A stretch of DNA of 64,000 bases. Source: Brachionus manjavacas. Lineage: Eukaryota; Rotifera; Eurotatoria; Ploima; Brachionidae. Each line of letters opens with the position of its first letter. The stretch's first letter is position 1. This document shows positions 23,250-64,000 of the stretch, piece after piece. The DNA is taken from the NCBI GenBank assembly GCA_019054805.1, contig JAHQIY010000003.1, forward strand, positions 1,550,001 through 1,614,000. Reading direction: 5' to 3'. A program made the translations under genes and the position numbers. The notes beneath the pieces were generated by a model. It was given only the letters and a program-made list of their open reading frames with translations, did no database searches and had not been told where the DNA came from.

Positions 23250-23367
23250 GTCTAGGACCATATCACGTTGAATGCACCGGTTCTCGTCCGATCACCGAAG
23301 TTAAGCAACGTCGAGCCCGGTTAGTACTTGGATGGGTGACCGCCTGGGAATACCGGGTGTTCTAGAC
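23250..23367 (+). rRNA. 5S ribosomal RNA gene
   Basis: A 118-base gene from GTCTAGGACC to GGTGTTCTAGAC. The two ends pair to form helix I. The internal control region is complete (GTTAAGCAACGTCGAGC, then GGTTAGTACTTGGATGGGTG and CTGGGAATACCGGG). A T-rich stretch (CCTTTTATTTTT) after the end can serve as RNA polymerase III terminator. The 20 bases upstream (AAAAAATTGTTTTTTGAAT) resemble those of the other 5S genes here (AAAAAAATTGTAGTTTGAAT), so they may help initiation. Confidence 0.97.
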
Positions 23368-23374
23368 ATACCTT

Positions 23375-24664: not shown

Positions 24665-24996
24665 TATATTGGGTTTCCACATAGGTCGAAATCGAATCCT
24701 AAGATAGCGTGGACATTTTGTATTTCCTGAACCTAAATTTAAATAAGAAAATTAAATCTTTTATGATTTTTTGACCATAAATTAACAGTGTCAAATTGCT
24801 TTATCCAAACTAAAAGTTAAAATTATTTTGAAACCAAAAAAATTCAAAATTAATTCTAGATACGAAAATTATATAATTTGAGAAAAATTTCAATTTTATG
24901 TAATCTAAAGCACATGAACAAACCCTAAACTCCAATGTTGTAATATTATCCAAAATCAAATCTCTTCAAATAAACAAAATAAAATCGAACTGAAGT
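24665..24996. other. Upstream region of COQ8
   Basis: AT-rich; no TATA box or initiator stands out. The gene's promoter should lie here, just right of the palindromic MITE. Confidence 0.35.
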
Positions 24997-29314: not shown

Positions 29315-29408
29315 TGTCAATTTATCTAGTTTTTTTTATTTATTAATTTTTATTTTTGATACTAAATAAAATTAAAAAAGATTAGAAGTTAAATGTAAAA
29401 GTTAATAA

Positions 29409-29970: not shown

Positions 29971-30130
29971 ATTCATTGATCCTTGTGATAAAATGATTTT
30001 TATTACAGTTTATTTTCATTTTATTACTTATTTGGAATTTAATAATTGAATTTTTTTTGCATTTAATTTTGAATGCTGAATATTCAAAATAAATTTTACA
30101 AAAGAACATTTAATGCATTTAAATAATGAT

Positions 30131-30206
30131 AGTGGAGAAGATAGTGTAGCGTGTAATCGACAGCATATTGCGACTGAGAATCCCGGTTCGAATCCTAGCA
30201 AATATT
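30131..30206 (+). other. Degenerate tRNA-like sequence with a perfect B box (unit 1)
   Basis: GGTTCGAATCC at about 30182-30192 is a perfect polymerase III B box, and GATAGTGTAGCGTG upstream is a weak A-box candidate. The T-stem is only partly paired and no acceptor stem closes, so this is a tRNA pseudogene or the head of a tRNA-derived SINE. Confidence 0.4.
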
Positions 30207-32110: not shown

Positions 32111-32112
32111 TT

Positions 32113-33180
32113 TTATTTCGTAGAATAAGTCAATCGGTGTTTGAATCTTTTGGTATCTGAGTGGGAAACAGTTTGCACGTATGCGTGAATTTCTTTGGCT
32201 ATAAATTCTTTTTTTAATTTACTTCCTATGAATTTGACAAACAAGTGATTTGCCCTTTCTTCAATTGTGTCAAGCTTGAGTACTTTGTGTATTGTGCGTA
32301 CTGAAGTCTTTAGCGGAAAAAATTTAATTATTTTTAAGATCCTGTTTTGGATTTTCTGAAGATTTTTCTTAATTCTTTCAGTACCCACATTGATTATGAC
32401 AAAACAGTAATCCATAAGAGATCTAATTAAAGTTTTATATAATTGTATGTTTAAAGATAGGGACTTGGCCCATTTAAAATTTCTTATTCATCTTAGCAGG
32501 TTTGTTTTAGGAATGAGCTTTCTTTCTAATTGGTTTTCGCAACATCACTAAAATAAATAATGAATAGAGTTGGTTAGAGACAGCTTCCTTGTGAAACTCC
32601 ACAGTTTATTGGTTTTTCTATTGAAACACATTCCTTATAATCCACTTGAAATGTCCTATTACTTAGGAAGTTATTTACTCAATAAGCACCGGTTAAGACC
32701 AAGGTTTTCTAGTTTTTCAATGATCCTAAAGTGCGAGACCTTATCAAATGCCTTTTCTAAATCAAAAAATACGGCTCCTGTTAGTTAATTGTTATTAAAT
32801 CCCTCACAAACTGATTGGGTTATATTCAGAATATGCTCTTGTGTGGAGCGCTTTTTTCTAATACCTGCCTGGCATTTAGGAAGCACCTGATTCTTTTCGG
32901 CCCATTTTTGTATCTTTTGGTTTAATACTTTTCTAATAATTTTCATAAGAAGCATAAAAGTAAGATTGGTCTTTATGAGCCTCGATCTTCTGGTGGCTCT
33001 CCTATCTTTAAAATTACTATTACTCTGGCTTGTTTCCATTCTTTTGGTAAATGACCTAATTTGATCGAGTAGTTGAATACCTATTGTTTTAATTATTTTC
33101 ATTTTTCCAAATGAAACTCTATTTGAAAATTGGAAGAAGTTTTTTTTATCAAAACCAATTATTAAACAAAACAAATAAAT
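32113..33180 (-). mobile_element. LINE family C remnant (unit 1)
   Basis: Minus strand from high to low: RSFTKRMETSQ and IIRKVLNQKIQKWAEKNQVL (RT N-terminal part), then LEKAFDKVS near 32730, a broken palm, then MDYCFVIINVGTERIKKNLQ and IKFFPLKTSVRTIHKVLKLD. The last block is shared with 6420-7115. Several stops and frame shifts. Confidence 0.8.
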
Positions 33181-33463
33181 AAGAAGGAGCTAGTTGTTTT
33201 GTTCGAGATTGAGTGATGTACATTTCTTTCATAAAACCAGCCAGTAATAAAAATTGTGACTTTAGAAAACAGTGCTGTTTTTACACATTAGAATTGAAAC
33301 TTTTATTTCGTCAGAAAATATTTGCTAAAGAGTGTTTTTTCGACCAAACTTCAAAAAGCTATTTATGAGACTTCAGCACGATTTTTTTATAGACAAGATT
33401 TATGTTGAAATTTCAATGAGAAACTATTCTTAAATGATTAATCCGAAATCATTCAAATAAAGA

Positions 33464-33840
33464 TTACAACATCTTGAATCTTCTGCTATATAAATGTTCT
33501 TGATAATTGATGCATATTTTATCGCATAAGCTGAAATAAAGTATAATTTTCGACTTTAATAAGACATTACAAAAAAAAACATTTTTTTTGTTTAAACCGT
33601 TTTTTGTTAGATCTACAAATATTTCGCCGTCTTCAACAAATCTATTAATTAACAACATAATCACTTCCACATCACGATCTGATCTACCGAATCTCTTATT
33701 GTTACTCGAACTTTCGTCGATATCAATTTCGGATTTTTGCGATTTAACCTTTACATAGCGATGTGCCTTTAGACGGCATAATTTGCATCTGTATATATAC
33801 ATTTTGCATATATACGCATACACCTTTTTGTGCCATAATG
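33464..33840 (-). pseudogene. FLYWCH-like finger remnant (unit 1)
   Basis: A minus-strand frame contains KMYIYRCKLCRLKAHRYVKV, which fits the C-terminal half of a FLYWCH-type zinc finger, often fused to MULE transposases. It is followed by an acidic linker and DVEVIMLLINRFVEDGEIF. Copy 2 (42979-43262) is shortened by a frame shift in an A run. The identification is weak. Confidence 0.25.
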
Positions 33841-33849
33841 TAGAATTTA

Positions 33850-35535
33850 TTTAACGCTGCTTCTGCAACATTTTCTCTTGAAATCTAACTCAATGGACTA
33901 ACTCGATCACCTCATCTGTTGCAAAAAATACACTATACAGTGATTATACTAACCAAGTTTGTTGTCTTCCTTCAATTTTTTTACTTTTACTAAATCTTAT
34001 TCAAAAAATTAGGTGCTTAATATTTATTTGAAGGGAAGACCTAGATTTCAAAAAACTGCCGATTTAATACTATTTTCTAAAGTCTTTCAAAAATTAAAAA
34101 AAAAACATTTCTCTTTTTAACTATTCTTCTTACGATTCTTGGACTTCTCTATACGTACCGATACGAACACGCCATTAATTCAATAGGAGTTTAGAAAGTA
34201 AACGAAAAAAAAAAAACTATTTCATTTGCTTGCGGCTATTTCATTTGACGCCATAAATGTCTCCTCCAATTTGCCATCACCATATTTTATTTATCCATTT
34301 AAGCTTTATCACTTAAAATTTTCTTTATTGAATATCTTTAATGTTATTTTCCTTAACATAACTTACATTAAAAGTTTTGCTCCTGAGCCGATTAATTTTG
34401 CTGCTGAAACTAAACCTTTTTTCAATATTTTATGTCTCAAATAAACTGAACTGATCCAATTTATTCAACTGATACTTTACAAAGACTAAAAAGTTCTGGT
34501 AATGATGGTAAAAAATCATAAATTGTCTTCAGATTCCAAAAAAAAACATTTTTGAAGAAAATGAAATTCAAATGAATTATGATTTAGACTCATTGCAAAT
34601 ATTTCAAATAACAAATTGATTTAATGTAACAGGTCATAAAGCCGATTCTTTTGCTGAAATTCAAGTTAATCAAAATAAAGTGCTGGAAAATAAGCGAATT
34701 CGGATTTGATAGAAATAGAGATGAAGACTTTTGATCTTAGTAAAATTGTAAAATAGTAAAAAAAGACATTTTAAATTTTGTAAGCCCGAGTCAATTGGTG
34801 ATTTATTCAGAATACAGAACGATTCAGCAAGCATTGTCATATGAAGATTTTTACATGTAATTTTTGACATAGAAATTTTTTAATTTATTATATATGAATG
34901 CAAAATGTTTAGGGTTTTTTATGAGTAGAAAAATAATTGGATTTAAGTTTTTATTGAACATGTTTATACAGCCATTTAAAAAAAATTTTTAAGTAAAATC
35001 CTTGATAAGTAATAAAATTAAAAAGCTTAATTGATTAATTGATTGAAATTTCAAATGAACAGGCGTGCTTATTTACCAATTAAAACTGATATTCTTTTTT
35101 AATAACATTAATCAACTAACATATAATAGAATGCTAAATCTGTCCGCAAAATCTTTATATGTATCTTATACAAATTAAATCGATTCTTTAGATTCGTGTG
35201 ATCCATTCGAGGTATTTTCAAAATGGATATTTTTAAGTACAAAAGAACTTAAAAACTAGTGATATTCAAATAACTACAAAAAAATTTAATGGACTTTTTT
35301 TTTTATTTTTATTAGTATTTTAATAAATAAACTAAACAATATCCAAAAAACTAATTGATTTAAGAAAATATAAACATTTCACTTAAATCAATTTTATTTT
35401 ATTTTAAATTATTAGGTATCATTTATAAACAAGGCATTGTTTTGATTTATGATTTTAGGATGCAATTTTTCTTTTAATATTTTAATCTAATGGTAAATTC
35501 AAAAAATTCAAATAAAAAGCTCTAGTTTAAAAGTT
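33850..35535. other. AT-rich stretch, no gene seen (unit 1)
   Basis: No recognisable gene; short frames only. Confidence 0.4.
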
Positions 35536-35539
35536 AAAA

Positions 35540-35760
35540 GTTTACCAGAATAACTGGAACACAATAGACATAACAACTAGAAGCACAGTCAACACGAATA
35601 AATTTAAAAATCGAATTGATAAACTTCTCGGGTATAGTAAAGCTGCATATGAAAACTGGACGTAGGCTGTTAAAGCAGATCGTCTACTGACTATTCTGCT
35701 CGGGATCCTCGATCCCCAACAGCTTGTTTACTACTACTACTACTACTAATCCAGTTCAAG
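35540..35760 (+). mobile_element. LINE 3' end with (TAC)n tail (unit 1)
   Basis: The plus strand reads NWNTIDITTRSTVNTNKFKN followed by RIDKLLGYSKAAYENWT, the usual LINE C-terminal block. It then has GGGATCCTCGATCCCC (a small hairpin) and ends in ACTACTACTACTACTACT. It lies almost at the end of the duplicated unit. Confidence 0.75.
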
Positions 35761-36028
35761 AACCGATACGACGTCTTGTATCCAAACTACCGTTCCATAG
35801 GAACCACAAACAATTTTATTATTGTGTTTAAACGAGCTTTTTGTTTACTTTAAAATGCAAACGGATCCCAACTGGTCAAATTTTTTCTACAATAAAGAAA
35901 ATAAAAAGGTATTTGTTATTATTAATTATCCTTCTTCTTCTATGAAAAATTAAAGCTATGATGAATTTTTAACTTTCAATTATAAGGATTTTAATTTTTG
36001 TTAGATTATAAATATAATTTAAATATCT

Positions 36029-36142
36029 GTAATGCCGAGTAGTAGTAAATACTGAGACCCTATCAGGTCAAGCTTCTTCGAAGTTATGGCTGTAAATTAA
36101 ACTGATTCTTTAGCCATTTGTCCTGGCTAATTTTTAAGCTTT
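36029..36142 (-). mobile_element. LINE 3' end (unit 2)
   Basis: Duplicate of 26597-26710. Confidence 0.7.
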
Positions 36143-36325
36143 TAATGACAACAAATTATTTTCGTAATAATAATAATTAAATTCGTAGCAAAAATAATTT
36201 ATTAGTAAAAGTAGCAAAGTAAATTTATCAGTAGTAAAAAAAGATAAGAAAGTTAAATAATTAGATCAAATATTTATTAATAAAAAAAAATCATATATTA
36301 CTTAGAAATGTTTTTTAGTGTTATT

Positions 36326-36817
36326 TTATGGATTTTTTCTAAGATGGCCTCTTTTTCTCGGAGCTAAACCTGAAGATGTTGTTGATTGTACAATAGTTTG
36401 AATGCCATTATAGAAACTTTCGGCTTGATCTTGATCATTATCATTTTCATTTGTAAGCAGATTTTGTTTTTGGTATGTGAACGTGCTCTTCTTCTTCAAA
36501 AAAAATAGATGCACACGAATTTGTATTCGGTTTGAATGTATAAAGTATTTAATCACAACTTGAACATTTTAAAAATTCTTTATCTCCTATTTTCGATTTT
36601 GTTTTTTATTGCTGCCAAAAATTAGCCTTCAAATTTTTTTTTAAATCAAATCAAGGGCTTGTGTGTAAGTTTCAAAGTTAGCATGATGATAATTAACTCC
36701 ACTTGTTTTTCTTTCTTTTTTAACGGGAGTTTCATCTATTTCGGTATCATATTCGGTGTCCTCTTCATTTCTTTGTGTCACGAGTATTGATGTAGATGAA
36801 GATTTGGTTTCACTCAT
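36326..36817 (-). CDS. Uncharacterised minus-strand ORFs (unit 2)
   Basis: Duplicate of 26894-27384; both short frames are unchanged in protein sequence. Family not recognised. Confidence 0.25.
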
Positions 36818-38835
36818 TTTTAGTTTCTTAATTTTCAGATTTGTATATTTTAATTTCAAAATTTTTGTAGATTATATACATTAAAAAGTGATAATTGAGT
36901 AGTTATCAATCAAAAATTAAATTAACAATTTTTCTCTTACTTTCTTATTTAATCTAATACGTCTAATATTTTCTACGATTTGAAGTCACTGCTTCAAATA
37001 TCACAAAGAAACTTTTGGTTTTCTATTCTATTCCATGCATGAACTTGCTCTTCTTTCTACCAGATTTTCAATGTCAAAGACTTCAATCTGTTTTTTCTTC
37101 TGTTCTATCTGTTCTATAAATAACTATAGATTTTCTTCTATTTTTTTTTATGCAAAACTAATTTTATTTTTACTTTACTTCTCCTGATGAAGGTTAATTT
37201 GAATTAAATAAATAAATCTGTTTTTTATACGCTTTGTTTCTATTTTAAGAAACAAATTTCGTAGCTTTGCGAATTGTTTCAGCTTTCTCATAATCAGACT
37301 TGAGAATTGGAGACAAAACAGACACAGCAAATCTTTGTTGTAGCAGTGTGTATGTGTAATTCTTTTTACTTTATTTTTTCTTAGTTTTTTTATTAGATTT
37401 TTTCTTTTTCTTTTCTTTATAATTGTAAAATATTTTACAATACTTTTCCTTTTGGGGGTTAATTTTAATCAAATAAATGAATATAGCAGTGTTGTTCAAA
37501 AGACATTTGTTCAAAGTAAATTTTTTTCAAATATTTAATTATTTAATTAATTATTTTATTAAAATTATTTTATTATTTTATTTTATTAAAAATTATTTTA
37601 TTTAATTTGTTTAAAAAATTTAATTATTTTTAGGAAAAGTGCAACTTGCACTTTCAAGATCTGAGATCTTCAGCTTAAAAATTCAATAAACTCTAAAACA
37701 GCATCTTGAAATATATTAAAAGCACTGTAGTTTTAGTGGTCAATACTCAATTCTATTTTCTCCTTTACTTGGCTTTTAATAAATGATCATTAAAATTATT
37801 GAACATTTGAGGAATTTTAATTTAAAAAATGTTGAATTTTTATTTTTAGAATCTATTTAGATTAATAAAAGTGGTCATCCGTCTTTAAATGGTCCTTTTT
37901 TAGATTGATTCACAAATTAGCATCTTTAAATTTTACCAAATTTTCGTTTTTATTTTTCTTTGAAATTTAAAATAATCCGATTCTTTTTGTTTTACAGAAA
38001 ATCACCGCAAATGTTGAAAAAATGTCTTTATATTTGAAGTATTTTAAGAAAGAAAATGCCATAATTATTAATTTTAATTTAGAAAAATTTTATTAAAAAA
38101 TATTTTAAAATTCTAAAATTGTCAATAAATTTTGCTGAAAAATATTTCATAGCGATAAAACGATATTTTTTGTTGAGTGAAAGACCTGTGTGCAACAATG
38201 AATGCTAAAAATTTAGGCTTTTCGGCCTTTGCATTTAATGTTTATTTATAAAAAAATCTTCATACGACTTTTGTCTAATTAAAAAAAATGATACTAAAAA
38301 ATATTATTTTAAGATCTATTTGTTGGATTTTGGAGCTAGTAGAACTTATTCGAAATTGTTTGTTGATAAATATATTCGAATAATAAAAGCAGCGGCAGAT
38401 AACGACCGTCAAGGAGTGCTAGAATGGAGCAGAGATTTGAAATTTTTGACTGGCTATGAGACAAAAACAATGGAAGAGGCGCACATAGATGCAGTGTTGA
38501 TTCTTGGCGAGGCATTTGCCAAAGATGAAGTGTTCGACTTTGGAAAACAAAACACAACCAAGCGAATAAATGATCTAGTACCAGTAATGCTACAGCATAG
38601 ACTAACTCCTCCGCCCGAGGAGACTTATTCACTTCATCGTAAAATGTCGGGTGCGTTTCTTCTCTGCGCCAAATTAAAATCCAAAATAAAATGCAAAGAT
38701 TTATTTGATGAAGTATGGAAAAATTATAAATTTTCATCATAGTGTCAATTTATCTAGTTTTTTTATTTATTAATTTTTATTTTTGATACTAAATAAAATT
38801 AAAAAAGATTAGAAGTTAAATGTAAAAGTTAATAA

Positions 38836-39397
38836 CTTCAATCTGTTTTTTATACGGTTTGTTTCTATTTTAAGAAACAAATTTCGTAGCTTTGCGAATT
38901 CTTTTAGCTTTCTCATAATCAGACTTGAGCATTGGAGACCAAACAGACACAGCCAATTTTAAAAGGTGACGAACAGAAGTTAAATACAGAGATCTATTAA
39001 ATTTACATCAAGACGAGCGAATGATTTTCTGATGCGATTTAACATTTTATTCTTTGTTTGTAGCCACTATCACTTAATTTTCCCATTTCAGATTTGAATT
39101 CAAAATAACTTCAGGATCTCTTTCTGTTACCGACGTTAATAACTGTTTACCATTAATAAAATAAGGGAATTCTGTGTTTTTATGACCACAATGCATAACC
39201 ACAAATTTTGAAGTGTTGAATAGAACAAGAAAATCTTGAGTCCTCCTCATAATTATATCTAAATTTGATTTTAGTTTCACTGCGCTTATTTTTGATACCT
39301 TTGCGAGAATATTTTAGTATCACCTGCATACATTTTGACAAAATTCTCTATTTCTTTTGGTAGATCATCGATACACAAAAAAAAACAATAGTGAACC
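38836..39397 (-). mobile_element. LINE remnant (unit 2)
   Basis: Duplicate of 29409-29970, with the same RT-end and C-terminal pieces. Confidence 0.8.
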
Positions 39398-39557
39398 ATT
39401 CATTGATCCTTGTGATAAAATGATTTTTATTACAGTTTATTTTCATTTTATTACTTATTTGGAATTTAATAATTGAATTTTTTTTGCATTTAATTTTGAA
39501 TGCTGAATATTCAAAATAAATTTTACAAAAGAACATTTAATGCATTTAAATAATGAT

Positions 39558-39633
39558 AGTGGAGAAGATAGTGTAGCGTGTAATCGACAGCATATTGCGA
39601 CTGAGAATCCCGGTTCGAATCCTAGCAAATATT
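39558..39633 (+). other. Degenerate tRNA-like sequence (unit 2)
   Basis: Duplicate of 30131-30206 with the same perfect B box. Confidence 0.4.
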
Positions 39634-41536
39634 AATAAAATAACAAATTATGGATTTGAGCTAGTGCTTTCAGTGTTGTACTTCTACTTGCCATCTGGTT
39701 TGAGTTTATCGCAAAATCATTTCTCTAGATGGTTGACCATTCATATAAAAAATTGGAACCTAGTATTAGAACAGCGATTATCTTCCTTTCGGAGCTAGTT
39801 TTTGATATCAAATTCAATTTATTTGAAATTTATTGACACGTGCGGGTTTTAAATTGTTAATTCAATTCAGTTTTGTTTAGCAGCAAAAATGTGTAAATTA
39901 TTAAGTTGAGTAAAGCCATTTTGTTACCTTTGATCATTTTAAAAGAAGATTATGAATATGTACAAACAAACAAGAGTTACGAATTTTTAACTAGAATTAA
40001 TATTTTTATCTTTTGCATTTGATAATTCGATCTTAAATTTTATTGCCTCGGTTCGGACGGACATCAAAAATAACTAACCAAAATTTGTTTAAAACTTTTA
40101 GATGTATCGTTAAATCTGTAAAACTCTATCCCTTCTCTTTTTTTTCTTTCTTATCGATTCTAAAAATTTTTATAAATTTTTAATTTATTTATATATTTGA
40201 ATACAATTTGAATTCAAATTTGAGAAAATTTTTCGGATCTTTCTCTCAATGATGGCATTTGCGTGCTTAGCTCTAAGTTGTGAAATTCGCTTGATATTCC
40301 TAACGCGTGGTTCTCTTATAAAACTTTTACCGATACGTTTTTAATCTCTATATAAATTAAAAGGTACTGATTGATTCAAAGATTTTTGAATCTAAGCTAA
40401 CTGGAGTTATTCCTTCTTGTTTAAATTAACAGTGAAAAGCTGCTTACCGTTTAAGTGAGTTTACTTATCTTTCTTTAGTGATCCCAAAAGTTTATTGAAA
40501 ATTTGTAAAATTATTGAAAATATTTAAATTTCGATACTTTGTCAGTTTCAAATACTTAAGTTATAATTTTGACTTTCTTGAACTTGTTAATCTGTCTTCT
40601 GTAATTATTTTAAAAAATTTTTTAAAATAGAATGATGATTCTTATAACCGATTAAGATTCCAAAAATTTTTCTATACCAAAATCGTTAATTTAAAGAGCA
40701 TTTGCAATAGTCAAAATAGCTTCTGATGTAAATTTAATTTCAAAAAATTAATAATTATGCTATCGCTCTTACAAATTGACATGTTATTTGCTACCAATTT
40801 TTGCAATGTTAAAACTCGTCTCGGCTTGGAAGGACCAATTATAAAACAACCCACATCGAGGCATTAGTTTCATTTAAATTGGTGACATTCAACTTTCTTC
40901 CATCGAAACAGTAATTTATAGAGGGCTAAATCATAAAGTTTGACGTTTGATAGAGAAGTAAACTGTACATTAGAATTTTATTTGTTTCCTATAAGACTGC
41001 AAAATCTGAGAATTTTTTCCATCTTCAATTTTTGGCTTATATATTAAATTTCTACAGATATCTAATCCTTAATTTCTAATCCTTAATTGAGATTTTCTGG
41101 ATTCTGTAACTGAACTAAGTAAAATTTTTAACTTTCAACAACATATCACAACACAAATTTTATTAAGAAAGATTCAAAATTTTGAAAAAGATTATTTTTC
41201 TTGTTTTTCCGATAATGAAACTATTTGCGATATTACATTTTTTTCATGTCAGTTTATCCAAGCTAAATCTTATTTAGGCCAACATATGTAGACAAATGGT
41301 GAAAAATAAGAATTGGCTTATGGTTACAATTTTAACAAAGAGAAAGGAAAATTACTTTTTGTAAAATTTAATCAAGATTCAGGAACTCGGTTAAATATCG
41401 AACCTAAATTAACTATCTTCTTGGTCAAAATTGTTCAAAATCAATTTTTTCATGGTATTGTACTTCTATAAGTCCTAATCGTTATGTTGGCTGTTGTTCA
41501 AACGTCGCAAGTATTATTAATTGTCTTTATTGAATT

Positions 41537-42603
41537 TTATTTCGTAGAATAAGTCAATCGGTGTTTGAATCTTTTGGTATCTGAGTGGGAAACAGTTTGC
41601 ACGTATGCGTGAATTTCTTTGGCTATAAATTCTTTTTTTAATTTACTTCCTATGAATTTGACAAACAAGTGATTTGCCCTTTCTTCAATTGTGTCAAGCT
41701 TGAGTACTTTGTGTATTGTGCGTACTGAAGTCTTTAGCGGAAAAAATTTAATTATTTTTAAGATCCTGTTTTGGATTTTCTGAAGATTTTTCTTAATTCT
41801 TTCAGTACCCACATTGATTATGACAAAACAGTAATCCATAAGAGATCTAATTAAAGTTTTATATAATTGTATGTTTAAAGATAGGGACTTGGCCCATTTA
41901 AAATTTCTTATTCATCTTAGCAGGTTTGTTTTAGGAATGAGCTTTCTTTCTAATTGGTTTTCGCAACATCACTAAAATAAATAATGAATAGAGTTGGTTA
42001 GAGACAGCTTCCTTGTGAAACTCCACAGTTTATTGGTTTTTCTATTGAAACACATTCCTTATAATCCACTTGAAATGTCCTATTACTTAGGAAGTTATTT
42101 ACTCAATAAGCACCGGTTAAGACCAAGGTTTTCTAGTTTTTCAATGATCCTAAAGTGCGAGACCTTATCAAATGCCTTTTCTAAATCAAAAATACGGCTC
42201 CTGTTAGTTAATTGTTATTAAATCCCTCACAAACTGATTGGGTTATATTCAGAATATGCTCTTGTGTGGAGCGCTTTTTTCTAATACCTGCCTGGCATTT
42301 AGGAAGCACCTGATTCTTTTCGGCCCATTTTTGTATCTTTTGGTTTAATACTTTTCTAATAATTTTCATAAGAAGCATAAAAGTAAGATTGGTCTTTATG
42401 AGCCTCGATCTTCTGGTGGCTCTCCTATCTTTAAAATTACTATTACTCTGGCTTGTTTCCATTCTTTTGGTAAATGACCTAATTTGATCGAGTAGTTGAA
42501 TACCTATTGTTTTAATTATTTTCATTTTTCCAAATGAAACTCTATTTGAAAATTGGAAGAAGTTTTTTTTATCAAAACCAATTATTAAACAAAACAAATA
42601 AAT
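41537..42603 (-). mobile_element. LINE family C remnant (unit 2)
   Basis: Duplicate of 32113-33180; an A-run length change near 42190 alters the frame relative to unit 1. Confidence 0.8.
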
Positions 42604-42978
42604 AAGAAGGAGCTAGTTGTTTTGTTCGAGATTGAGTGATGTACATTTCTTTCATAAAACCAGCCAGTAATAAAAATTGTGACTTTAGAAAACAGTGCTG
42701 TTTTTACACATTAGAATTGAAACTTTTATTTCGTCAGAAAATATTTGCTAAAGAGTGTTTTTTCGACCAAACTTCAAAAAGCTATTTATGAGACTTCAGC
42801 ACGATTTTTTTATAGACAAGATTTATGTTGAAATTTCAATGAGAAACTATTCTTAAATGATTAATCCGAAATCATTCAAATAAAGATTACAACATCTTGA
42901 ATCTTCTGCTATATAAATGTTCTTGATAATTGATGCATATTTTATCGCATAAGCTGAAATAAAGTATAATTTTCGACT

Positions 42979-43262
42979 TTAATAAGACATTACAAAAAAA
43001 ACATTTTTTTTGTTTAAACCGTTTTTTGTTAGATCTACAAATATTTCGCCGTCTTCAACAAATCTATTAATTAACAACATAATCACTTCCACATCACGAT
43101 CTGATCTACCGAATCTCTTATTGTTACTCGAACTTTCGTCGATATCAATTTCGGATTTTTGCGATTTAACCTTTACATAGCGATGTGCCTTTAGACGGCA
43201 TAATTTGCATCTGTATATATACATTTTGCATATATACGCATACACCTTTTTGTGCCATAATG
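42979..43262 (-). pseudogene. FLYWCH-like finger remnant (unit 2)
   Basis: Duplicate of 33464-33840, cut short by a homopolymer difference near 42993. Confidence 0.25.
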
Positions 43263-43264
43263 TA

Positions 43265-44960
43265 GAATTTATTTAACGCTGCTTCTGCAACATTTTCTCT
43301 TGAAATCTAACTCAATGGACTAACTCGATCACCTCATCTGTTGCAAAAAATACACTATACAGTGATTATACTAACCAAGTTTGTTGTCTTCCTTCAATTT
43401 TTTTTACTTTTACTAAATCTTATTCAAAAAATTAGGTGCTTAATATTTATTTGAAGGGAAGACCTAGATTTCAAAAAACTGCCGATTTAATACTATTTTC
43501 TAAAGTCTTTCAAAAATTAAAAAAAAAAACATTTCTCTTTTTAACTATTCTTCTTACGATTCTTGGACTTCTCTATACGTACCGATACGAACACGCCATT
43601 AATTCAATAGGAGTTTAGAAAGTAAACGAAAAAAAAAAAACTATTTCATTTGCTTGCGGCTATTTCATTTGACGCCATAAATGTCTCCTCCAATTTGCCA
43701 TCACCATATTTTATTTATCCATTTAAGCTTTATCACTTAAAATTTTCTTTATTGAATATCTTTAATGTTATTTTCCTTAACATAACTTACATTAAAAGTT
43801 TTGCTCCTGAGCCGATTAATTTTGCTGCTGAAACTAAACCTTTTTTCAATATTTTATGTCTCAAATAAACTGAACTGATCCAATTTATTCAACTGATACT
43901 TTACAAAGACTAAAAGTTCTGGTAATGATGGTAAAAAATCATAAATTGTCTTCAGATTCCAAAAAAAAACATTTTTGAAGAAAATGAAATTCAAATGAAT
44001 TATGATTTAGACTCATTGCAAATATTTCAAATAACAAATTGATTTAATGTAACAGGTCATAAAGCCGATTCTTTTGCTGAAATTCAAGTTAATCAAAATA
44101 AAGTGCTGGAAAATAAGCGAATTCGGATTTGATAGAAATAGAGATGAAGACTTTTGATCTTAGTAAAATTGTAAAATAGTAAAAAAAGACATTTTAAATT
44201 TTGTAAGCCCGAGTCAATTGGTGATTTATTCAGAATACAGAACGATTCAGCAAGCATTGTCATATGAAGATTTTTACATGTAATTTTTGACATAGAAATT
44301 TTTTAATTTATTATATATGAATGCAAAATGTTTAGGGTTTTTTATGAGTAGAAAAATAATTGGATTTAAGTTTTTATTGAACATGTTTATACAGCCATTT
44401 AAAAAAAATTTTTAAGTAAAATCCTTGATAAGTAATAAAATTAAAAAGCTTAATTGATTAATTGATTGAAATTTCAAATGAACAGGCGTGCTTATTTACC
44501 AATTAAAACTGATATTCTTTTTTAATAACATTAATCAACTAACATATAATAGAATGCTAAATCTGTCCGCAAAATCTTTATATGTATCTTATACAAATTA
44601 AATCGATTCTTTAGATTCGTGTGATCCATTCGAGGTATTTTCAAAATGGATATTTTTAAGTACAAAAGAACTTAAAAACTAGTGATATTCAAATAACTAC
44701 AAAAAAATTTAATGGACTTTTTTTTTTATTTTTATTAGTATTTTAATAAATAAACTAAACAATATCCAAAAAACTAATTGATTTAAGAAAATATAAACAT
44801 TTCACTTAAATCAATTTTATTTTATTTTAAATTATTAGGTATCATTTATAAACAAGGCATTGTTTTGATTTATGATTTTAGGATGCAATTTTTCTTTTAA
44901 TATTTTAATCTAATGGTAAATTCAAAAAATTCAAATAAAAAGCTCTAGTTTAAAAGTTAA
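43265..44960. other. AT-rich stretch, no gene seen (unit 2)
   Basis: Duplicate of 33850-35535. Confidence 0.4.
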
Positions 44961-44962
44961 AA

Positions 44963-45182
44963 GTTTACCAGAATAACTGGAACACAATAGACATAACAAC
45001 TAGAAGCACAGTCAACACGAATAAATTTAAAAATCGAATTGATAAACTTCTCGGGTATAGTAAAGCTGCATATGAAAACTGGACGTAGGCTGTTAAAGCA
45101 GATCGTCTACTGACTATTCTGCTCGGGATCCTCGATCCCCAACAGCTTGTTTACTACTACTACTACTACTAATCCAGTTCAA
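44963..45182 (+). mobile_element. LINE 3' end with (TAC)n tail (unit 2)
   Basis: Duplicate of 35540-35760. Confidence 0.75.
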
Positions 45183-45344
45183 GAACCGATACGACGTCTT
45201 GTATCCAAACTACCGTTCCATAGGAACCACAAACAATTTTATTATTTTTTCGTTCTATTTTTTTATTCTTGCAAAAATTATTATTAAACTTTTTTTTAAC
45301 CCTAAAATTTTTATTGTTTATTTCTATCAGTGTTTATCTCATTA

Positions 45345-45439: not shown

Positions 45440-46860
45440 TAAATTTAAGTGTCTACATTCATAAGAAAAAAAATTATGGCTGAACCACTTTGGAGACTGA
45501 CAAAGAGCGGCGTAAAATGGCAGTGGGGAGAAATTGAACAGAGTGCGTTTGAAGATATAAAGCAAGCAATATCAACTAAATGCAAAGGCTTCTTCAAAAA
45601 AGATTGGGACACGTCATTGACGGTGGACGCAAGCCCGGTTGGATTGGGAGCAGTGCTCCATCAAGTCAACCCATATAATCCAAAAGAACGACAAATAGTG
45701 AGCTGCATCTCTCGAATGTTAACAGATGTAGAACGCAGGTGTAGTCAATGTGCAAAGGAAGCCCTTGGGTTAGTTTGGTCGTGCGAACGACTTTGGTTGT
45801 ATCTTCTCGGAAGACCATTCACAATAGAAACAGACAACCGAGCTGTCAAGATGATTTTTACCAACACAAAATCAAGACCACCTGCCAGAATAGAACGGCT
45901 AGCATTACGCCTGTCTCAATTTGACTTCAATGTCATCACATTCACCGCTGAGAATGTGATGCGAAAATTGAAGAGGGTGCTAAGCTATAGCAAAGCTAGA
46001 AAAGCAAAATCCTGACACAGTGCTGAATGAATTTTTATCCAGCTACCACGACACGCCACATAGCGCTACAGGGATTGCACCCAATATGCTTCTCTTCGGC
46101 TACGCCAGGACATCAGGATTTCCGATCATAGACTCAAATTATGATGATCGACAAAAATGCCATCGCATGACTCAAGAGCAGCACAAGAAGTACGCTGAAC
46201 AAATGAAGCGGCAGTTCGATATGAAAATGAAGCAAAAGAATGCACGATCCAAATGGGTGACATTGTCTTTTGCAGACAAAGCGCCTCGAGCAAAAGTGAT
46301 TCTGCCAGGGACCCACATCCTTTTACAGTGACCAGTGTGAAGGGTTCAATGATTGAGGCTACTAGATGCTACCCACAGATTCGAAAGGTGGCCAGGAACT
46401 CCAGTTTCTTTAAATTATACAGAGAGTGGAATATCTCAGATGAAAACACCACAAACACAATTCCAGCCACTTCAACTACCGCAAGAGAGTCAACGTCACG
46501 CCGAACTCAGACAAGCTCAGCAGAACGAGAAAGAAAAGGAGTCTTGACTACCCGTAGTCAACAGTGTTCAGCACTAAATATGGAACTCGAAGAGTCAGGA
46601 GCGGAGGCAACTGAACCAGCAAGCTCCACCAATACAGCACCAGAGACCAGAAAAAAGTCCATGGAAGCTAGCAAAATGGTAGCACGCCCGGTCGGTCGAC
46701 CAACGTCTGAAGAGTCACACAAAATACAAATGGAACGGCAAGCTGCACAAGCGATCCAAATTGAGCTTAACTCACCAGCAAGAAGATCCTCAAGGCCAGC
46801 AAGAAAGGCAGCACCAGAGAATAACCATCTCTCTTCTGAAAGGGGGGGAGATAATGTGTA
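45440..46860 (+). mobile_element. Ty3/Gypsy retrotransposon, truncated and internally deleted
   Basis: The first frame (to 46015) opens with the end of the reverse transcriptase (AEPLWRLTKSGVKWQWGE) and a complete-looking RNase H: SLTVDASPVGLGAVLHQV, KEALGLVWSCERLWLYL and TIETDNRAVKMIF carry the acidic residues. After ITFTAENVMRKLKRV the sequence jumps to the late integrase region (46020: LNEFLSSYHDTPHSATGIAP), so the zinc finger and DDE core are lost. A frame break near 46260 leads to an integrase tail (DPHPFTVTSVKGSMIEATR) and a basic, Ser/Ala-rich end to 46861. GC content is clearly higher than the surroundings. A polypurine tract (GAAAGGGGGGGAGA, 46838-46851) stands just before the LTR. 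Confidence 0.88.
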
Positions 46861-57219: not shown

Positions 57220-58315
57220 ATCACCCATGTTTTAAAAATGTGATTAAAAGGGATTGTCGTTTAAGTAAATATTGTAAGTTTGGGTTGAAACTTGATCAAT
57301 TTACTTATATATCATTTCATAATTCCTTTCTTTAATTGATGTTCAAGGATTACATGAAAATAATTGAGTGATAAATTTGAAAGCAATTTAGAAAAGATAA
57401 CGATATCAAAAAATATTACAGCTTAAATATACCTTTGTCATTCTGGACTAGGAAAAATCGAAAAAAACTGTTACCAAATTTCATTTACATTAAATTTACA
57501 TTAATCTATTTTGATAGAAATTTTTTCAATTTAACATTCAAAGGCCCAGGATTTTTTTCGATCTTTTTTGATTCTTCTTTTGTTTTTTACTCAACACATT
57601 TAAACAGAATTGTTTAAGTCCCAAAATAATGTCCAAGTCTGGACATTTTTTAACTTATTTTCAAAAGTTCAGCACTTGCTTGGCCGCGAAAATAACTATC
57701 TGAAACGGCAGAAATTTAATTTGTCTTTGTTTCTGACTGATGGATTCTCGATGCTATTCATTTGAATCAGTTTATTTTAAAAAATAAAAATTAATCAAAA
57801 TAAAAATTAGAGAAATCTAAAAATTTTTTAATTTTTTTTGTAAATTTGAATATCAAAAGAGAGAGTGTCATTAAAAGACCTCATATCAGTATTCACAGCT
57901 TTGTCATATTGAATCTTAGATTCTTGGTCAATTAATTCAGTTTTGTTATTTTATTTGTTTAAAATTAACTTAAAAATAATAATTTCGGTTACTAAAGTTT
58001 TTAACCAAAATAAAAAGCCCATACTTTGACTTTTTTTTTAAATTTAAGTCTTTGACTCATATTTTTTAAAAAGTAAAAAAAAAGTCCGGTCTTGAGACTT
58101 TTGACTTTTAGAAACCCTGCATTTTTGACAATTTCATTATTGTTAAAAAATATTTTTATTTTTCTGTAAAAAAAATTTATGCGGTAGGGCTTAGATGAGA
58201 TTTTGGACCGATCATGTAACTTTTTAATCTAAAACGATTCTTCATCTTTTAAATGAAAAGATACATTATTTAAAATTTAAACTTGCAAAATTTACTAATG
58301 AAAATTTTAAAGGAA
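57220..58315. repeat. AT-rich stretch with dispersed repeat copies
   Basis: 57550-57720 matches 15740-15900 in reverse (shared GCGGCCAAGCAAGTGCTGAA type block on the minus strand). GGACTT/AAGTCC phrases recur at 57620-57645 and 58015-58120. No gene is seen. Confidence 0.5.
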
Positions 58316-58317
58316 AA

Positions 58318-58410
58318 ATAATAATAATAATAAAAGGCTACAGCAGAACACCCGCGGAGCGAAACTAGATATAGTTTCGCAATGGAAGCTATCTTTCTGC
58401 GAAAAGAAAA
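58318..58410 (-). mobile_element. Retroelement 3' end with (TAA)n tail
   Basis: (TAA)n at 58319-58333 is followed by GGCTACAGCAGAACACCCGC and a GAAACTAGATATAGTTTC hairpin. The layout resembles 23750-23860, but the hairpin sequence differs. Confidence 0.45.
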
Positions 58411-58519
58411 TTATTATTCATTTAATATGCAATCCAGTCTAGTTCATATATTTACAATTTATTTATTTGTTTTTAATTTTTTGCTTGTTCTTTTCAAATT
58501 TTTCGACTACCGAATTTCG

Positions 58520-59514
58520 TAATCAAATAATTCAATCAAATTCAAGGGAAGATAGGTAAATAAATTAGTAAAGTGTTTCTTGATTTCCGTTTCTATCCAG
58601 GTGTCGGTCAATTTGGCATTTTAAGCTGTTTAAGGGCTAGGCACTGATAATTTCAGAGGGTAACTCGTTCGAATTCTATACATTTAGAGAAGAAATTTTC
58701 ACGTTGCTTAATGTTTGCAGGTTGTTTAATAAACCTTTGTTTGTGTCCTCGTATACCACTTGCTGGGTCGTCAGTTGTCAGTGATTTACATTTGAGTGTA
58801 TGCCATGTTTCAAAGCCACACTCTTTAATACATTTAAAAAATTCTATTAGGTCTTTTATTTCAGGTCTCTGCTCTAGGAAAATTAATTCGAGTTACTCTA
58901 ATCTTTCTTCATAATATAAATGCCTAATCTCAGGCAAAAATTTTGCTGCTCTGCTTAATATTTTTTTTAGTTTTCTATGTCTTTTTTTGAAAATTGACTC
59001 CAAGCAGCAGCGTACCCCCAGATGCGGCCTAAGTTGCATAAAGCTGCCTAAATGTTTTAATTGTCCAGTATTTGAAAACTAATTTAAGTTGCTTAAGTTA
59101 AGAATAATTTTTGTTTAGTTTGCCGCATCAGATGCTTGGTGGTTCCATTTTTAGATCGCTTTTTAAGTAAATTCAAAGGTAAAGCTCAACATCTGTTTGT
59201 TGCATTTCTGAATTCTCCATGTGTAAATTTATTTCTTGGAAGTGTTAGTTCTTGAAGAACATAAATTTACATTTTTCTTTATTGAAACTCATCTGCCATA
59301 ATTTGCCCAAGCAAAGAGTCTGTTTATACAACTTTAGGTCCAACTTTAGGTTGAGCACGTCTTTTCTGTTTCTTATATAGGTTAGCACTTTGGTGTCATC
59401 TGCAAAAAGCTTAACTAAGCTGTAAACTATTTCTGGCATGTTATTTATGAGTATGACTAAAAGTAGTGGGCCGAATTTAAACACTTTTCGCCTAGAACAA
59501 CTCTTTTGTTCCAT
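58520..59514 (-). mobile_element. LINE family F remnant (RT palm to C-terminus)
   Basis: Minus strand from high to low: FGPLLLVILINNMPEIVYSL, KLFADDTKVLTYIRNRKDVL, LGKLWQMSFNKEKCKFMFF, then in broken frames AKFLPEIRHLYYEERLE, LIFLEQRPEIKDLIEFFK and ETWHTLKCKSLTTDDPASG. The catalytic FADD is kept but many stops follow. Confidence 0.85.
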
Positions 59515-59660
59515 TTAAAAAGTCAGAAAGCCAATTTAGAAGGGTACCTCTGAAATTATTAGCTACAAATTTCTTGTTGTTATTTTAAAGAATTTTTTTT
59601 AATTTTTCTAGATAATGTCCTGTATTGGAAAGATACGTATTATTATGATATGATGTCCAG

Positions 59661-60003
59661 CTATCTTTTGTTAAACCTATTAAATGAATGATTTTTCAAA
59701 AGTTCATTCTTTCGAATTGAATAAACATCATTCATTGTTGAATTTATTCGTACCTTAGTAGAAATTACAAAGTCCTTGTTAAGCATGCGATAAAAATGTA
59801 TGAAATATTTGTTTGTAAGTATAGTAAATAAAAAAATTATAAAATTGACCACATTGACCATAGATTTCCCTTTTTTAAATTCGATACGCTCCATTTTATT
59901 CATAATCTTAAACATCTGGATCAGATCTCCTTGCGATCTTTTCGAAATCAAGTCTGTCAGACCGATTTCACGTAATAGTATCGGATAACCCAGATACTTT
60001 GAA
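59661..60003 (-). mobile_element. LINE C-terminal fragment
   Basis: The minus strand reads LGYPILLREIGLTDLISKRS then QGDLIQMFKIMNKMERIEFK, the 'RR.rGDLIqmfKim' block of LINE polyproteins, and ends NELLKNHSFNRFNKR. It is a separate insertion from 58520-59514, because its order relative to that RT piece is reversed. Confidence 0.75.
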
Positions 60004-60242
60004 TTTACTTAGTTTCTCTGCAAAAATTTTATGCATGCAGAATTATACAAAATGCTGGATTAAGATGAAAATATGTCTTTGCATTTTTTTAATTAAAATT
60101 ATTAACAACCTTTTTTTAATTAAGGAACAATCTTTTTTTAAAAAGAGTCCTGTAAATTTAATAGTGTCCCATGATTAAATGTGTTAAACAAATGTTTAAA
60201 CCTGTTAGCTAGCAGAAATAAAATAATGAACTTGAAGTTAAA

Positions 60243-60729
60243 ATTAAATTATTTATTATTAAAGATCAAGCAATAATAATTAAAGCCTAGGTCATCATAT
60301 TAAATCAACTCTAGTCTAGGGTATCGAAATTTTTTCTTTTATTACCATCTTTAATTTGTTCTTGAAAAATAAGTAATTTAATGTGAAAAAAATATTATGT
60401 GGATTTTGATTCAAATTACACTAAAAAATTATAGAAATTAATAAAATGTCAATTTAATTTCTGAAAATTTCTGAAATTGTGATTTTATGATAAAAAATGA
60501 AGGCCTAGAACACCCGGTATTCCCAGGCGGTCACCCATCCAAGTACTAACCGGGCTCGACGTTGCTTAACTTCGGTGATCGGACGAGAACCGGTGCATTC
60601 AACGTGATATGGTCCTAGACATTCAAACTACAATTTTTTTACTTACTTTAATGTTTACTTAGTTGATTCTTTAATCTAAATAATGATATGACAATCCTAT
60701 CAATACTATGCACCAAGAGGCTTTCAATA
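60243..60729. repeat. Inverted repeat, left arm (with 5S gene)
   Basis: Reverse complement of 63510-64000. The differences I see are homopolymer lengths (for example six versus nine T beside the 5S gene, and seven versus eight in a second run). The inner end lies within a family A LINE scrap that continues past the arm to 60782. The outer end is set only by the window edge on the other side, so the arms may be longer. Confidence 0.93.
60503..60620 (-). rRNA. 5S ribosomal RNA gene
   Basis: 118 bases on the minus strand, with the same internal sequence as the gene at 23250 and a compensated end (TTCTAGGC instead of TTCTAGAC, still pairing with GTCTAGGAC). A T run follows (CTTCATTTTTT on the minus strand) as terminator. 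It faces outward from the inverted repeat. Confidence 0.97.
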
Positions 60730-60782
60730 AACTTAAGCTACTAACAGTCTCAAATCGACTTTTTGAGTTGAGTGAGAGAAAT
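60712..60782 (+). mobile_element. LINE family A scrap across the inverted repeat boundary
   Basis: GCACCAAGAGGCTTTCAATA, AACTTAAGCTACTAACAGTC and GACTTTTTGAGTTGAGTGAG match the family A C-terminal region. The arm of the inverted repeat ends inside it at 60729. Confidence 0.75.
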
Positions 60783-61025
60783 AAAAAAAAAATGCTTCAG
60801 ACCAATTTTTTGGTTAAAATGGTTTACCAATATTAAAAATTATCAAAAGTTAATTTAAACCTTTTTTTGCAGAACAAATCTTTTTAATTTTAAAAAAATT
60901 TAATTAAAAGATAAAAAAGTTAAAACAATTGAAGAGTTTACCAAAATATTTCTTTTTTAAAAAAAATGAAATTTAATTAATTAATAAAATTTTTTATTCA
61001 TTATTTAAATTCACATCTTTTTTAC

Positions 61026-62570
61026 TTAAAAAAAAGAGTAATCGTTAATTAAATGAGCGTTAAATTCTTTATCAATAAAAACAATTTTGCCGCTTTTCAA
61101 AATTTTTGTATATATTTCATTTTTTAAATCAATTTGCTTGACCAAATTTAGATTTCGCTCATTCCAAACTTTGATCTCTCCACTCATGTCTTTGCTTACT
61201 AAATATCCGTTTTTACATGATAAAACTGAAATAATAGAAGAACGATAACACTTTTTTCTTTTAATTATTGTTAAATTCAAGTTCCAAATCAATAATTCAC
61301 CTTGTTCTGATGAATTAGTAGCAAATCTGTTTCTTTTCAATTTCTCAAGTATTATCATTTGTGGTCGGAAAATTTTTTCTACATTCACTTTTTTTTCAAC
61401 ACTCAAATCAAATGTATTCAAATAGAGATATTTGTTTGACTTCCATGTATACATAATGTAATTATCAAAAAATAACGAATCTAGAATATTATCAAAAGAA
61501 TCTAGACAATATTGGTTGATAATTTTCCCATTTAAATAATTGAAAATTGTCAAAAAAAAGTCATCCGTTAAAAAAAAGATTTTATCATCAACCAAATCTA
61601 CCTTAGAAAAGCTTTTTTTAATTAATTTATAATGGTTTAAACAAACGCCATCTAGATAAATTTTAACATTAAATTCATTGTCTATTGTGATTATTTCATC
61701 AGTATCCTCTTTATTAAAAATATATTTGATTAAATTATTGCCAGCTATTTCTTTTATTGGGCCACTTTCAGGATCACAAATAACCAAATTTGATGGTTTG
61801 GAAAAAGATGCGGAAACTATTTGGCCATTACTTAATTCCTTAAATTTTGCTAGTCCAAACTTACAGATAAAGTTAGATTGATCATCAGATTTACTTTTAT
61901 CATTTTCCATTTGAATATCATTTTGGTTAAAAGAACCAAAGAATTCTGAAATGTCCAAATCTGGTTCTTTTTCACTTAGATGAAAATTCAAATTTTGAAA
62001 ATTTTCCATTTGTTGCAAATTTTGATTAAGATTATTTGTCTTCAAATCTGTCAAAAATTCATTCAGAGAATTGAAATTGTTTGGATCAATTTGTATTTTA
62101 TTTTTGATCTCATCGCGGATTTTTTTGGTATCAATTTGTTCCAAGTCTTGTTTAATGGTATCTGCAAATTTTAGTTCATGTTCTTCAACTTGGCTCCTCA
62201 ATGACTCATAATAATCATCAATTATTTTGGTAAAATGGACCTTTAATGTTTCTCTCTTAAGATCGATTTTACTAGTCACGCTTGACAAACAGTCTTTTAA
62301 GTAGGATCCAATGTCTTGTTTGATTGAATCCACATGGTCACACAAATTTAAAATAGTCTGCTTTTTTTCATTGAAAACAATTTGGTTTAATTTTTTCTCA
62401 TTCTTTTTAATGTGAAAACAATTGTCTTTATCGATTAGATGGTCTTTGCAAATAAAGCACTCAAAAGAGTTCGCCTGAGAATTTATGTGCTCGTAGCATA
62501 CCAAATAGCCACTCGGAAGATTGAAAAGAAACAAGTCATCTTGGTTACAGCTGCAATGTTCACAAATCAT
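61026..62570 (-). CDS. Cys/His-finger, coiled-coil, beta-propeller-like protein (single exon)
   Basis: An intact 514-codon frame from ATG at 62570. Residues 1-55 are rich in paired Cys/His (C3, C6, C8, C25, H28, C38, C41, H44, C51, H53), like a degenerate RING or B-box finger. Residues about 60-200 are helical with heptad-like spacing (CDHVDSIKQDIGSYLKDCLS, LRSQVEEHELKFADTIKQDL). Residues about 235-510 show repeating short beta-strand blades with WD-like ends (GELLIWNLNLTIIK, GEIKVWNERNLNLVKQIDL), so a WD40/NHL-type propeller is likely. The layout is TRIM-like; a role as a ubiquitin ligase or scaffold is inference. The gene fills the spacer of the inverted repeat. No introns and no frame breaks. 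Confidence 0.8.
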   Translation of the reverse strand: MICEHCSCNQDDLFLFNLPSGYLVCYEHINSQANSFECFICKDHLIDKDNCFHIKKNEKKLNQIVFNEKKQTILNLCDHVDSIKQDIGSYLKDCLSSVTSKIDLKRETLKVHFTKIIDDYYESLRSQVEEHELKFADTIKQDLEQIDTKKIRDEIKNKIQIDPNNFNSLNEFLTDLKTNNLNQNLQQMENFQNLNFHLSEKEPDLDISEFFGSFNQNDIQMENDKSKSDDQSNFICKFGLAKFKELSNGQIVSASFSKPSNLVICDPESGPIKEIAGNNLIKYIFNKEDTDEIITIDNEFNVKIYLDGVCLNHYKLIKKSFSKVDLVDDKIFFLTDDFFLTIFNYLNGKIINQYCLDSFDNILDSLFFDNYIMYTWKSNKYLYLNTFDLSVEKKVNVEKIFRPQMIILEKLKRNRFATNSSEQGELLIWNLNLTIIKRKKCYRSSIISVLSCKNGYLVSKDMSGEIKVWNERNLNLVKQIDLKNEIYTKILKSGKIVFIDKEFNAHLINDYSFF

Positions 62571-62982
62571 TTTTTGTTGAAAATAATTAAAAGATAAAAA
62601 CTAAGATTTTCTTGAAAATTTATTTTTAAATTTTATTTTTAAAATTTTTTTTTATAATATAGTAAATCAAATTCAAAAGAGGATTTCAACAAGAATGGTT
62701 TGAGCAATTTTTCAAAAAAAAAATTTGTGGCTGCACTACTAAAAATTAAAAGATGAAAAACTTCTTTGTTTTCAATTCGGATTGATTTAATAAGAGGATT
62801 CTTTTTTAATAATTTTCAATTTAACACCAAAGTTGTTTAAAAGTCCGGACTAGCACTTTTTTTAAAAAAAATAATGAATAGATAATGAATAAGTCTTTTT
62901 TAAGTCGGGACTTGGACTTGACTTGTGACTTTTAACCAGCTCTGTTTAGCACTAAATTTCCTTTAATTTATTTTATATCGAA
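62571..62982. other. Upstream region of the propeller gene
   Basis: AT-rich; it holds the promoter of the minus-strand gene, though no box is clear. The dispersed AAGTCGGGACTTGGACTTGA repeat lies at about 62840-62945. Confidence 0.4.
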
Positions 62983-63495
62983 ATTTATTTTGAAAAAAAA
63001 TAATAAAGTTGCAGAATTTAATTGACTTTAATTCAAAAAAATACTTCTCGGCTTCAATTCAAAGTGTCAAGTCTCAGAAAAGGTCTTTCACTTACAACTG
63101 ATGCATTCGTCATCTAAGTAGTGATAGAAATTAAAGAAAAATTTTTTTTTCTACTCGTTAGATTTTTAGACCGATCCAATCAAGCAAATTAACCAGATTA
63201 ATCAAGCTTCATACAGATCCAAATCAGGGTATCTCATATTTTTTTTTTTTTTTACTCCGATCTGGTGGTATTACCCATTCCTTTTCTATTTGCTAAGCCT
63301 TCCCACTACTGTGTTAAGAGAAAAGTCACTTCCAGCTCTGCCTTCATCACAAATACATACTTTTTTAAATTAAGTATTAAAACTTGTAATGTAAATAAAT
63401 GGAATTTGAATGAAAATTTTTATTTTCATTAAGTTTTGATGTAAAATGAGTATTTTATATTTTAATTAAAAAAAAAGTAAAAATTGAAATAAAAG
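62983..63495. repeat. 5S upstream flank repeat, copy 2
   Basis: It matches 22920-23230 in order, with about 220 inserted bases at 63130-63357 (GATCCAATCAAGCAAATTAA..., poly-T, TCTGGTGGTATTACCCATTC). The inverted repeat arm begins 15 bases after it. Confidence 0.75.
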
Positions 63496-63509
63496 AATTA
63501 TTTAAAGAA

Positions 63510-64000
63510 TATTGAAAGCCTCTTGGTGCATAGTATTGATAGGATTGTCATATCATTATTTAGATTAAAGAATCAACTAAGTAAACATTAAAGTAAGTAA
63601 AAAAATTGTAGTTTGAATGTCTAGGACCATATCACGTTGAATGCACCGGTTCTCGTCCGATCACCGAAGTTAAGCAACGTCGAGCCCGGTTAGTACTTGG
63701 ATGGGTGACCGCCTGGGAATACCGGGTGTTCTAGGCCTTCATTTTTTTTTATCATAAAATCACAATTTCAGAAATTTTCAGAAATTAAATTGACATTTTA
63801 TTAATTTCTATAATTTTTTAGTGTAATTTGAATCAAAATCCACATAATATTTTTTTTCACATTAAATTACTTATTTTTCAAGAACAAATTAAAGATGGTA
63901 ATAAAAGAAAAAATTTCGATACCCTAGACTAGAGTTGATTTAATATGATGACCTAGGCTTTAATTATTATTGCTTGATCTTTAATAATAAATAATTTAAT
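63510..64000. repeat. Inverted repeat, right arm (with 5S gene)
   Basis: Reverse complement of 60243-60729. It reaches the end of the window, so its outer boundary is unknown. Confidence 0.93.
63619..63736 (+). rRNA. 5S ribosomal RNA gene
   Basis: 118 bases, the same sequence as the gene at 60503-60620, in the opposite orientation. A run of nine T (63742-63750) follows and can end transcription. Confidence 0.97.

Follow-up and report, generated by a model that had tools for sequence, protein, structure and literature searches.

How do two whole 5S ribosomal RNA (rRNA) genes, both transcribed outward, come to lie in virtually identical inverted arms on either side of another gene? The question is raised by the right-hand end of a 64,000-nucleotide stretch of the genome of the rotifer Brachionus manjavacas (GenBank assembly GCA_019054805.1, 114.17 Mb in 61 contigs), taken from contig JAHQIY010000003.1 (C3:1550001-1614000) and here called the window; positions are those of the window unless a contig is named. 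As a sequence-only reading of this DNA had described, two inverted arms (A on the left, B on the right) each hold a 5S gene, and a 514-codon frame lies between them; the inverted alignment of 60243-60729 with 63510-64000 is free of mismatches and has 2 gap openings. The suspicion voiced there that the arms continue past 64000 and below 60243, perhaps as one flank of a larger palindrome, has also been borne out. When the neighbouring contig DNA is included, arm A spans 614 bp and arm B 618 bp (C3:1613510-1614127), A beginning at 60116 and B ending at 64127, 127 bp beyond the end of the window, and a mirror copy of the entire block follows downstream. Over these 614-618 bp the two arms show 0 substitutions and 4 gap bases, a match far above chance (E value printed as 0.0), and different sequence borders them on both sides. 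We consider it probable that this is a palindrome with four 5S copies whose sameness comes from ordinary copying between scattered 5S genes, B having been overwritten by A or by A's mirror partner, D.

The 5S genes A and B, and a further gene in the window, E, match the Rfam 5S model (cut-off 38 bits) across positions 1-120 of 120 and are therefore full-length members of the family; C and D, the copies in the right half of the palindrome, also score 113 bits. Runs of T after the genes would fit transcription by RNA polymerase III. An Rfam search of 58000-64000 with E values up to 1 returned just the two 5S genes and no small RNA upstream of them.

The larger palindrome is an inverted match, at ~99%, between C3:1610116-1619344 and 1628584-1619454 that resumes after gaps and reaches 1608190 on the left and 1629107 on the right, with arms of ~11.2 and ~9.7 kb. 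Its centre, outside the window, is a 109-bp spacer (C3:1619345-1619453) that was found once in the genome, with no source found elsewhere; near-identical inverted arms and a short unique spacer, the hallmarks of a palindrome, are both present. The 5.2-kb outer flanks gave no match when compared with each other, and, where the left arm has dispersed repeats, the right arm is short of two pieces, one of ~0.3 kb and one of ~1.1 kb. The A/B block forms the outer part of one arm. The palindrome duplicates both the 514-codon gene and CDC5L, and it carries the 5S genes A (C3:1610502-1610620, minus strand), B (1613619-1613737, plus), C (1625089-1625207, minus) and D (1628101-1628219, plus), D being the mirror partner of A and C that of B.

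Comparison of these four copies gives the similarity between A and B a direction. Over the 490 bp that begin with the 5S gene and take in its downstream sequence, each of the six pairs among A, B, C and D differs by 0-2 substitutions. In the 104 bp upstream of the gene A, B and D are identical (0 differences), and C differs, resembling instead, with small differences, the upstream sequence of two neighbouring 5S genes, E (23250) and F (C3:1507986). B is a composite of the two states, in which native upstream sequence as in C, E and F is followed by a native 5S-proximal remnant, a 12-base junction and then the A-type patch. Moreover, of the dispersed repeat that crosses the inner end of A, B holds just the first 20-odd bases. 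Because this repeat is unbroken in A but cut off in B, and because B keeps a native remnant, B would once have been C-like and would have been overwritten from A or D. We infer from the sequence that B was the recipient and A, or its twin D, the donor in a polarised, gene-conversion-like event, a single tract for which a donor, a recipient and unconverted outgroups (C, E and F) can all be pointed to. The repeat itself has 85-87% matches at 800-868, 11796-11869 and 20565-20633. It is possibly a non-long-terminal-repeat (non-LTR) retrotransposon: a frame beside another of its copies matches RVT_1 (E 3.4e-6) at 27.3 bits, under the cut-off of 29.6, and a 209-codon frame inside one copy matched no Pfam family.

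The arms are, besides, more alike than the flanks beside them. Between A and D there is 1 substitution in 593 positions of the arms versus 5 in 296 of the flanks (Fisher p 0.017); between B and C the figures are 1 in 490 versus 5 in 497 (p 0.22), and pooling the two comparisons gives p 0.006. In the mechanism that we envisage, inverted 5S copies would pair through their homology, and a break in or beside B would be repaired with A (or D) as the template. Copying would pass through the 5S gene and its upstream sequence and out into the neighbouring repeat of A's flank, and the copied end would then be rejoined to B's own upstream sequence, possibly by end joining at the 12 bases of the joint.

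Copying may also have acted between the palindrome arms as a whole, which is the weaker part of the case. The arms differ by 49 substitutions in total; those of the non-palindromic centre (9) and of the 5S patch (6) were dropped. The outer 4.9 kb holds 31 of the 34 background substitutions that remain, the inner 4.3 kb the other 3 (p 1.5e-6), and outside the two reading frames the split is 24 to 1 (p 1e-4), the break point having been chosen post hoc in both tests. The last 2.8 kb before the spacer is free of substitutions but includes CDC5L coding sequence. Arm-to-arm conversion may have homogenised the inner palindrome.

For the most part the locus is not special within its genome, which offers many 5S genes between which such copying could occur. 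They are single or loosely clustered and lie in both orientations; at least 47 were found, all above the cut-off, when 47 of 1341 first-look candidates were scored, and the additions from a search with the arm bring the number of places to 62. Among the neighbouring pairs less than 25 kb apart in these 62 places (n=45), 22 have the same orientation, 11 point outward and 12 inward, and once the palindrome's own three pairs are removed the counts are 22, 9 and 11. Orientation therefore looks random, with the proviso that 5S genes missed could alter the pairs. We then considered the 30 loci most like the window's arm, all on contigs C3 and C15, and removed the four in the palindrome. In the 26 further loci, 30 pairs of places have 240 bp or more in common at 90% or higher (~120 of the 240 bp being the 5S gene itself), 19 of them inverted and 11 direct, and 24 of the 30 pairs have a 5S gene on both sides. 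Immediate flanks are diverse: when 70 bases upstream and 40 downstream are compared, the 30 loci have 44 distinct flank pairs; some groups of 5S genes share flanks, mostly within one cluster. Elsewhere in the genome, too, 5S genes are probably kept alike by copying of this sort. One of the 30 pairs of places is a second outward inverted repeat, with two 5S genes in each arm, at C15:1613191-1614345 and 1618191-1619233; its matching pieces are of 133-400 bp at 94-100%, and no frame longer than 105 codons lies between its arms.

Several points weigh against this account. The B-C comparison is not significant when taken by itself, only one event is polarised, and the 12-base junction is without a known source. 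Coding sequence partly confounds the substitution gradient in the palindrome, whose break point is moreover post hoc. The 240-bp limit was fixed after a first look at 180 bp, the lists of 5S genes are partial (47 of 1341 and 40 of 127 candidates scored), and the 26 loci were preselected for likeness to the arm. Finally, everything comes from a single assembly, in which allelic differences, assembly error and true paralogues are not fully separable.

The absence of substitutions between A and B over their whole length is also what a simple, recent inverted duplication would give, A having been copied whole to the site of B, or the reverse, with no conversion involved. We regard this as improbable. 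The mirror copies indicate that the inverted 5S pair and its downstream sequence were in place before B acquired the A-type patch; outside that patch B keeps its native upstream sequence; and one insertion would not produce, in C, a near-identical 5S gene and downstream sequence next to a different upstream. The sequence-only reading had left it open whether the arms are young or kept identical by gene conversion, and of these two options conversion now stands as the best reading of their near-identity, with plain young duplication disfavoured.

An artefact of assembly, in which a false palindrome arose through the inverted joining of two haplotypes or of a fold-back read, is likewise quite unlikely, and here the evidence pulls both ways. 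Outside the ends and the centre the palindrome arms show 16 length differences, 9 of them of a single base and 14 of 1-3 bases, and the three that were examined are all in homopolymers, as sequencing error would give. One of the two genes is frameshifted in each arm by single-base homopolymer differences, CDC5L in the left arm and the 514-codon gene in the right, and these frameshifts may be sequencing errors. The available parts of two papers warn of assembly palindromes that may be produced by errors in scaffolding (PMC7953838, PMC5916493). On the other side, the palindrome lies inside a 9.76-Mb contig with unrelated outer flanks and a spacer found once, its arms differ by substitutions and by the two missing pieces, and the A/B repeat has boundaries of its own, with different sequence beyond them on either side. 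Nor was a third copy of CDC5L found that could represent a left-over haplotype: a search with the first 362 residues gave, besides the two known copies, just two places at 33-37% identity. The two CDC5L copies are convergent (C3:1615898-1618236 and 1620557-1622908), and the intact frame, in the right arm, matches residues 1-782 of 783 of the 'Cell division cycle 5-like protein' chain 5mqf_L, which we take to be the human protein.

The gene between A and B encodes a product with a Cys/His-rich N-terminus, a long helical part and a WD-type beta-propeller, the propeller being seen in a predicted model (mean predicted local distance difference test score, pLDDT, 70; predicted template modelling score, pTM, 0.50) that has low confidence at residues 1-50 and 190-230. 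The top Foldseek rows for this model include Fbw7, Cdh1, WDR61, PRL1, BamB and designed propellers. WD40 is matched by three of six family members, and the window's own member has weak matches, below the cut-offs, to related propeller families. Neither a RING nor a B-box family appears among the rows shown for the product, which looks TRIM-like by resemblance only. Its relatives are mainly grouped on contigs C19 and C1, with at least 58 matches among the best 84 of 125 candidates, one of which is the gene itself and three of which are pieces of its mirror copy. Of the eight relative loci that were fetched from outside the palindrome, one has a 5S gene within ~1.5 kb and seven have none. The one case, at C3:3991511-3993037, sits in a 5S cluster, ~1 kb from a 5S gene, and has only the 5S gene in common with the palindrome. 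The data thus give no support for linking this family to 5S genes, one case of nearness notwithstanding.

That case, together with the arm-gene-arm layout and the fact that both arms are read as ending in TTAATTAA, is what speaks for a composite mobile unit with 5S genes as its ends and the 514-codon gene as cargo, a possibility raised by the sequence-only reading. Such a unit has next to no chance of being the right explanation: the outer end of the arm was found at 4 places, all of them in this locus; TTAATTAA is its own mirror image, so that its presence on both sides follows from any shared end; the near flanks of other 5S genes are diverse; seven of the eight relative loci lack a 5S gene and the eighth shares nothing else; the WD-repeat gene is the only frame of at least 100 codons between the arms, with no transposase recognised; and the outward 5S repeat on C15 has no comparable frame. 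Nor was the arm-gene-arm block met with elsewhere. Both DNA searches, with the arm and with its outer end, pass over words that are very common; of the 53 matches listed for the arm (from the best 40 of 127 candidates), those to the four palindrome copies alone extend beyond the 5S gene and its near flanks. A 5S-derived short interspersed element (SINE), presumably of the SINE3-like kind, was considered and rejected, as the flanks compared in the 30 loci do not contain one shared body.

Table 1. Features of the palindrome and of the 5S genes within the window (positions 1-64000)
Feature	Position	Strand	Remarks
5S rRNA gene E	23250..23368	+	Rfam, 113.2 bits; its upstream sequence is in the native state, from which the event takes its polarity
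Left palindrome arm, portion in window	58190..64000	.	Arm extends to C3:1619344; right arm to 1629107
Dispersed repeat	58318..59576	.	73-78% in best copies, on other contigs; near the pieces missing from the right palindrome arm
Left arm A	60116..60729	-	Contains 5S gene; ~490 bp from gene start through downstream, plus 104 bp upstream
5S rRNA gene A, whole	60502..60620	-	Outward (leftward) transcription; Rfam RF00001, 113 bits
Dispersed-repeat fragment, possibly non-LTR retrotransposon	60709..60782	.	Unbroken across the inner end of arm A
514-codon gene	61026..62570	-	Open frame between the arms; member of a dispersed family
Native upstream of 5S gene B	63000..63497	+	Common to C, partly to E and F; ends in native 5S-proximal remnant
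Dispersed repeat inserted in native upstream of B and C	63142..63352	.	Absent from E and F
Junction of native upstream and A-type patch, 12 bases	63498..63509	+	From reading the sequence
Right arm B	63510..64000 (end at 64127, beyond the window)	+	
5S rRNA gene B, whole	63619..63737	+	Outward (rightward) transcription; Rfam RF00001, 113 bits

Elsewhere the window, which is AT-rich, contains an abutting direct repeat of 9.4 kb (26391-35823 and 35823-45246) whose halves differ by 2 mismatches and 14 gap openings; it is either a very recent tandem duplication or a duplication made in assembly. Just before it, the frame at 25491-26387 encodes an ABC1-type kinase domain (PF03109, E 3.7e-48), and just to its right the frame at 45449-46015 encodes an RNase H of retrotransposon type (PF17917, E 1.7e-23). 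An imperfect hairpin of ~146 bp (24523-24667) has one pyrimidine-rich and one purine-rich side.

The closest published parallel that we found is in Caenorhabditis, where, according to the portion of the source available, paralogous gene pairs such as those of the HSP16 locus lie in near-perfect inverted repeats with spacers of 126 and 414 bp in two examples, and gene conversion has been proposed to keep the arms alike (PMC1803023). Shared with that system are convergent or divergent pairs in inverted arms around a short spacer; different here are the 5S genes in the arms, the smaller inverted repeat nested in each arm and the polarisation of one conversion-like event. 5S genes that are partly dispersed or in inverted blocks, and homogenised, have been described in excerpts on the European pike (PMC5437419) and Tribolium (PMC11202950), being linked to a transposon in Tribolium freemani (PMC11202950). 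The 5S genes of those animals, as far as the excerpts go, are mostly in tandem arrays, whereas the ones found in this genome stand apart or in loose clusters and point either way. Palindromes, some of them suspected to be false, are reported in the available sections for a bdelloid rotifer, Adineta vaga, and for other parthenogens (PMC7953838, PMC5916493). As here, inverted homologous blocks occur on one scaffold and are discussed as a substrate for gene conversion, but the structures outlined in those sections are collinear multi-gene blocks in scaffolded assemblies, unlike arms of ~10 kb around a 109-bp spacer within a 9.76-Mb contig. A published proposal for palindromes with long inverted junctions offers a possible route for the birth of the palindrome; neither a triplication nor an origin is shown here. 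Among the papers listed in our literature search none reports palindromes of this sort with 5S genes, though such a report may exist, and by title and the start of the abstract none of the papers found for 5S rRNA in rotifers or Brachionus deals with the organisation of the genes.

The probable copying between scattered 5S genes, with B overwritten from A or D, makes this locus an unusually legible new instance of known processes. A more far-reaching idea, which we hold to be doubtful, is that the scattered 5S genes of this genome serve again and again as islands of homology, that copying spills from them into single-copy flanks and seeds the many short inverted and direct repeats around them, and that they would be a source of structural change instead of a passively homogenised family. 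What the locus offers is a readable overwrite of one inverted 5S gene by another, in which the donor and the recipient, the tract with its two ends and an unaltered control copy can be seen within 20 kb. Such cases show how scattered 5S genes that are not in arrays can stay identical, and how the copying can drag unique flanks along.

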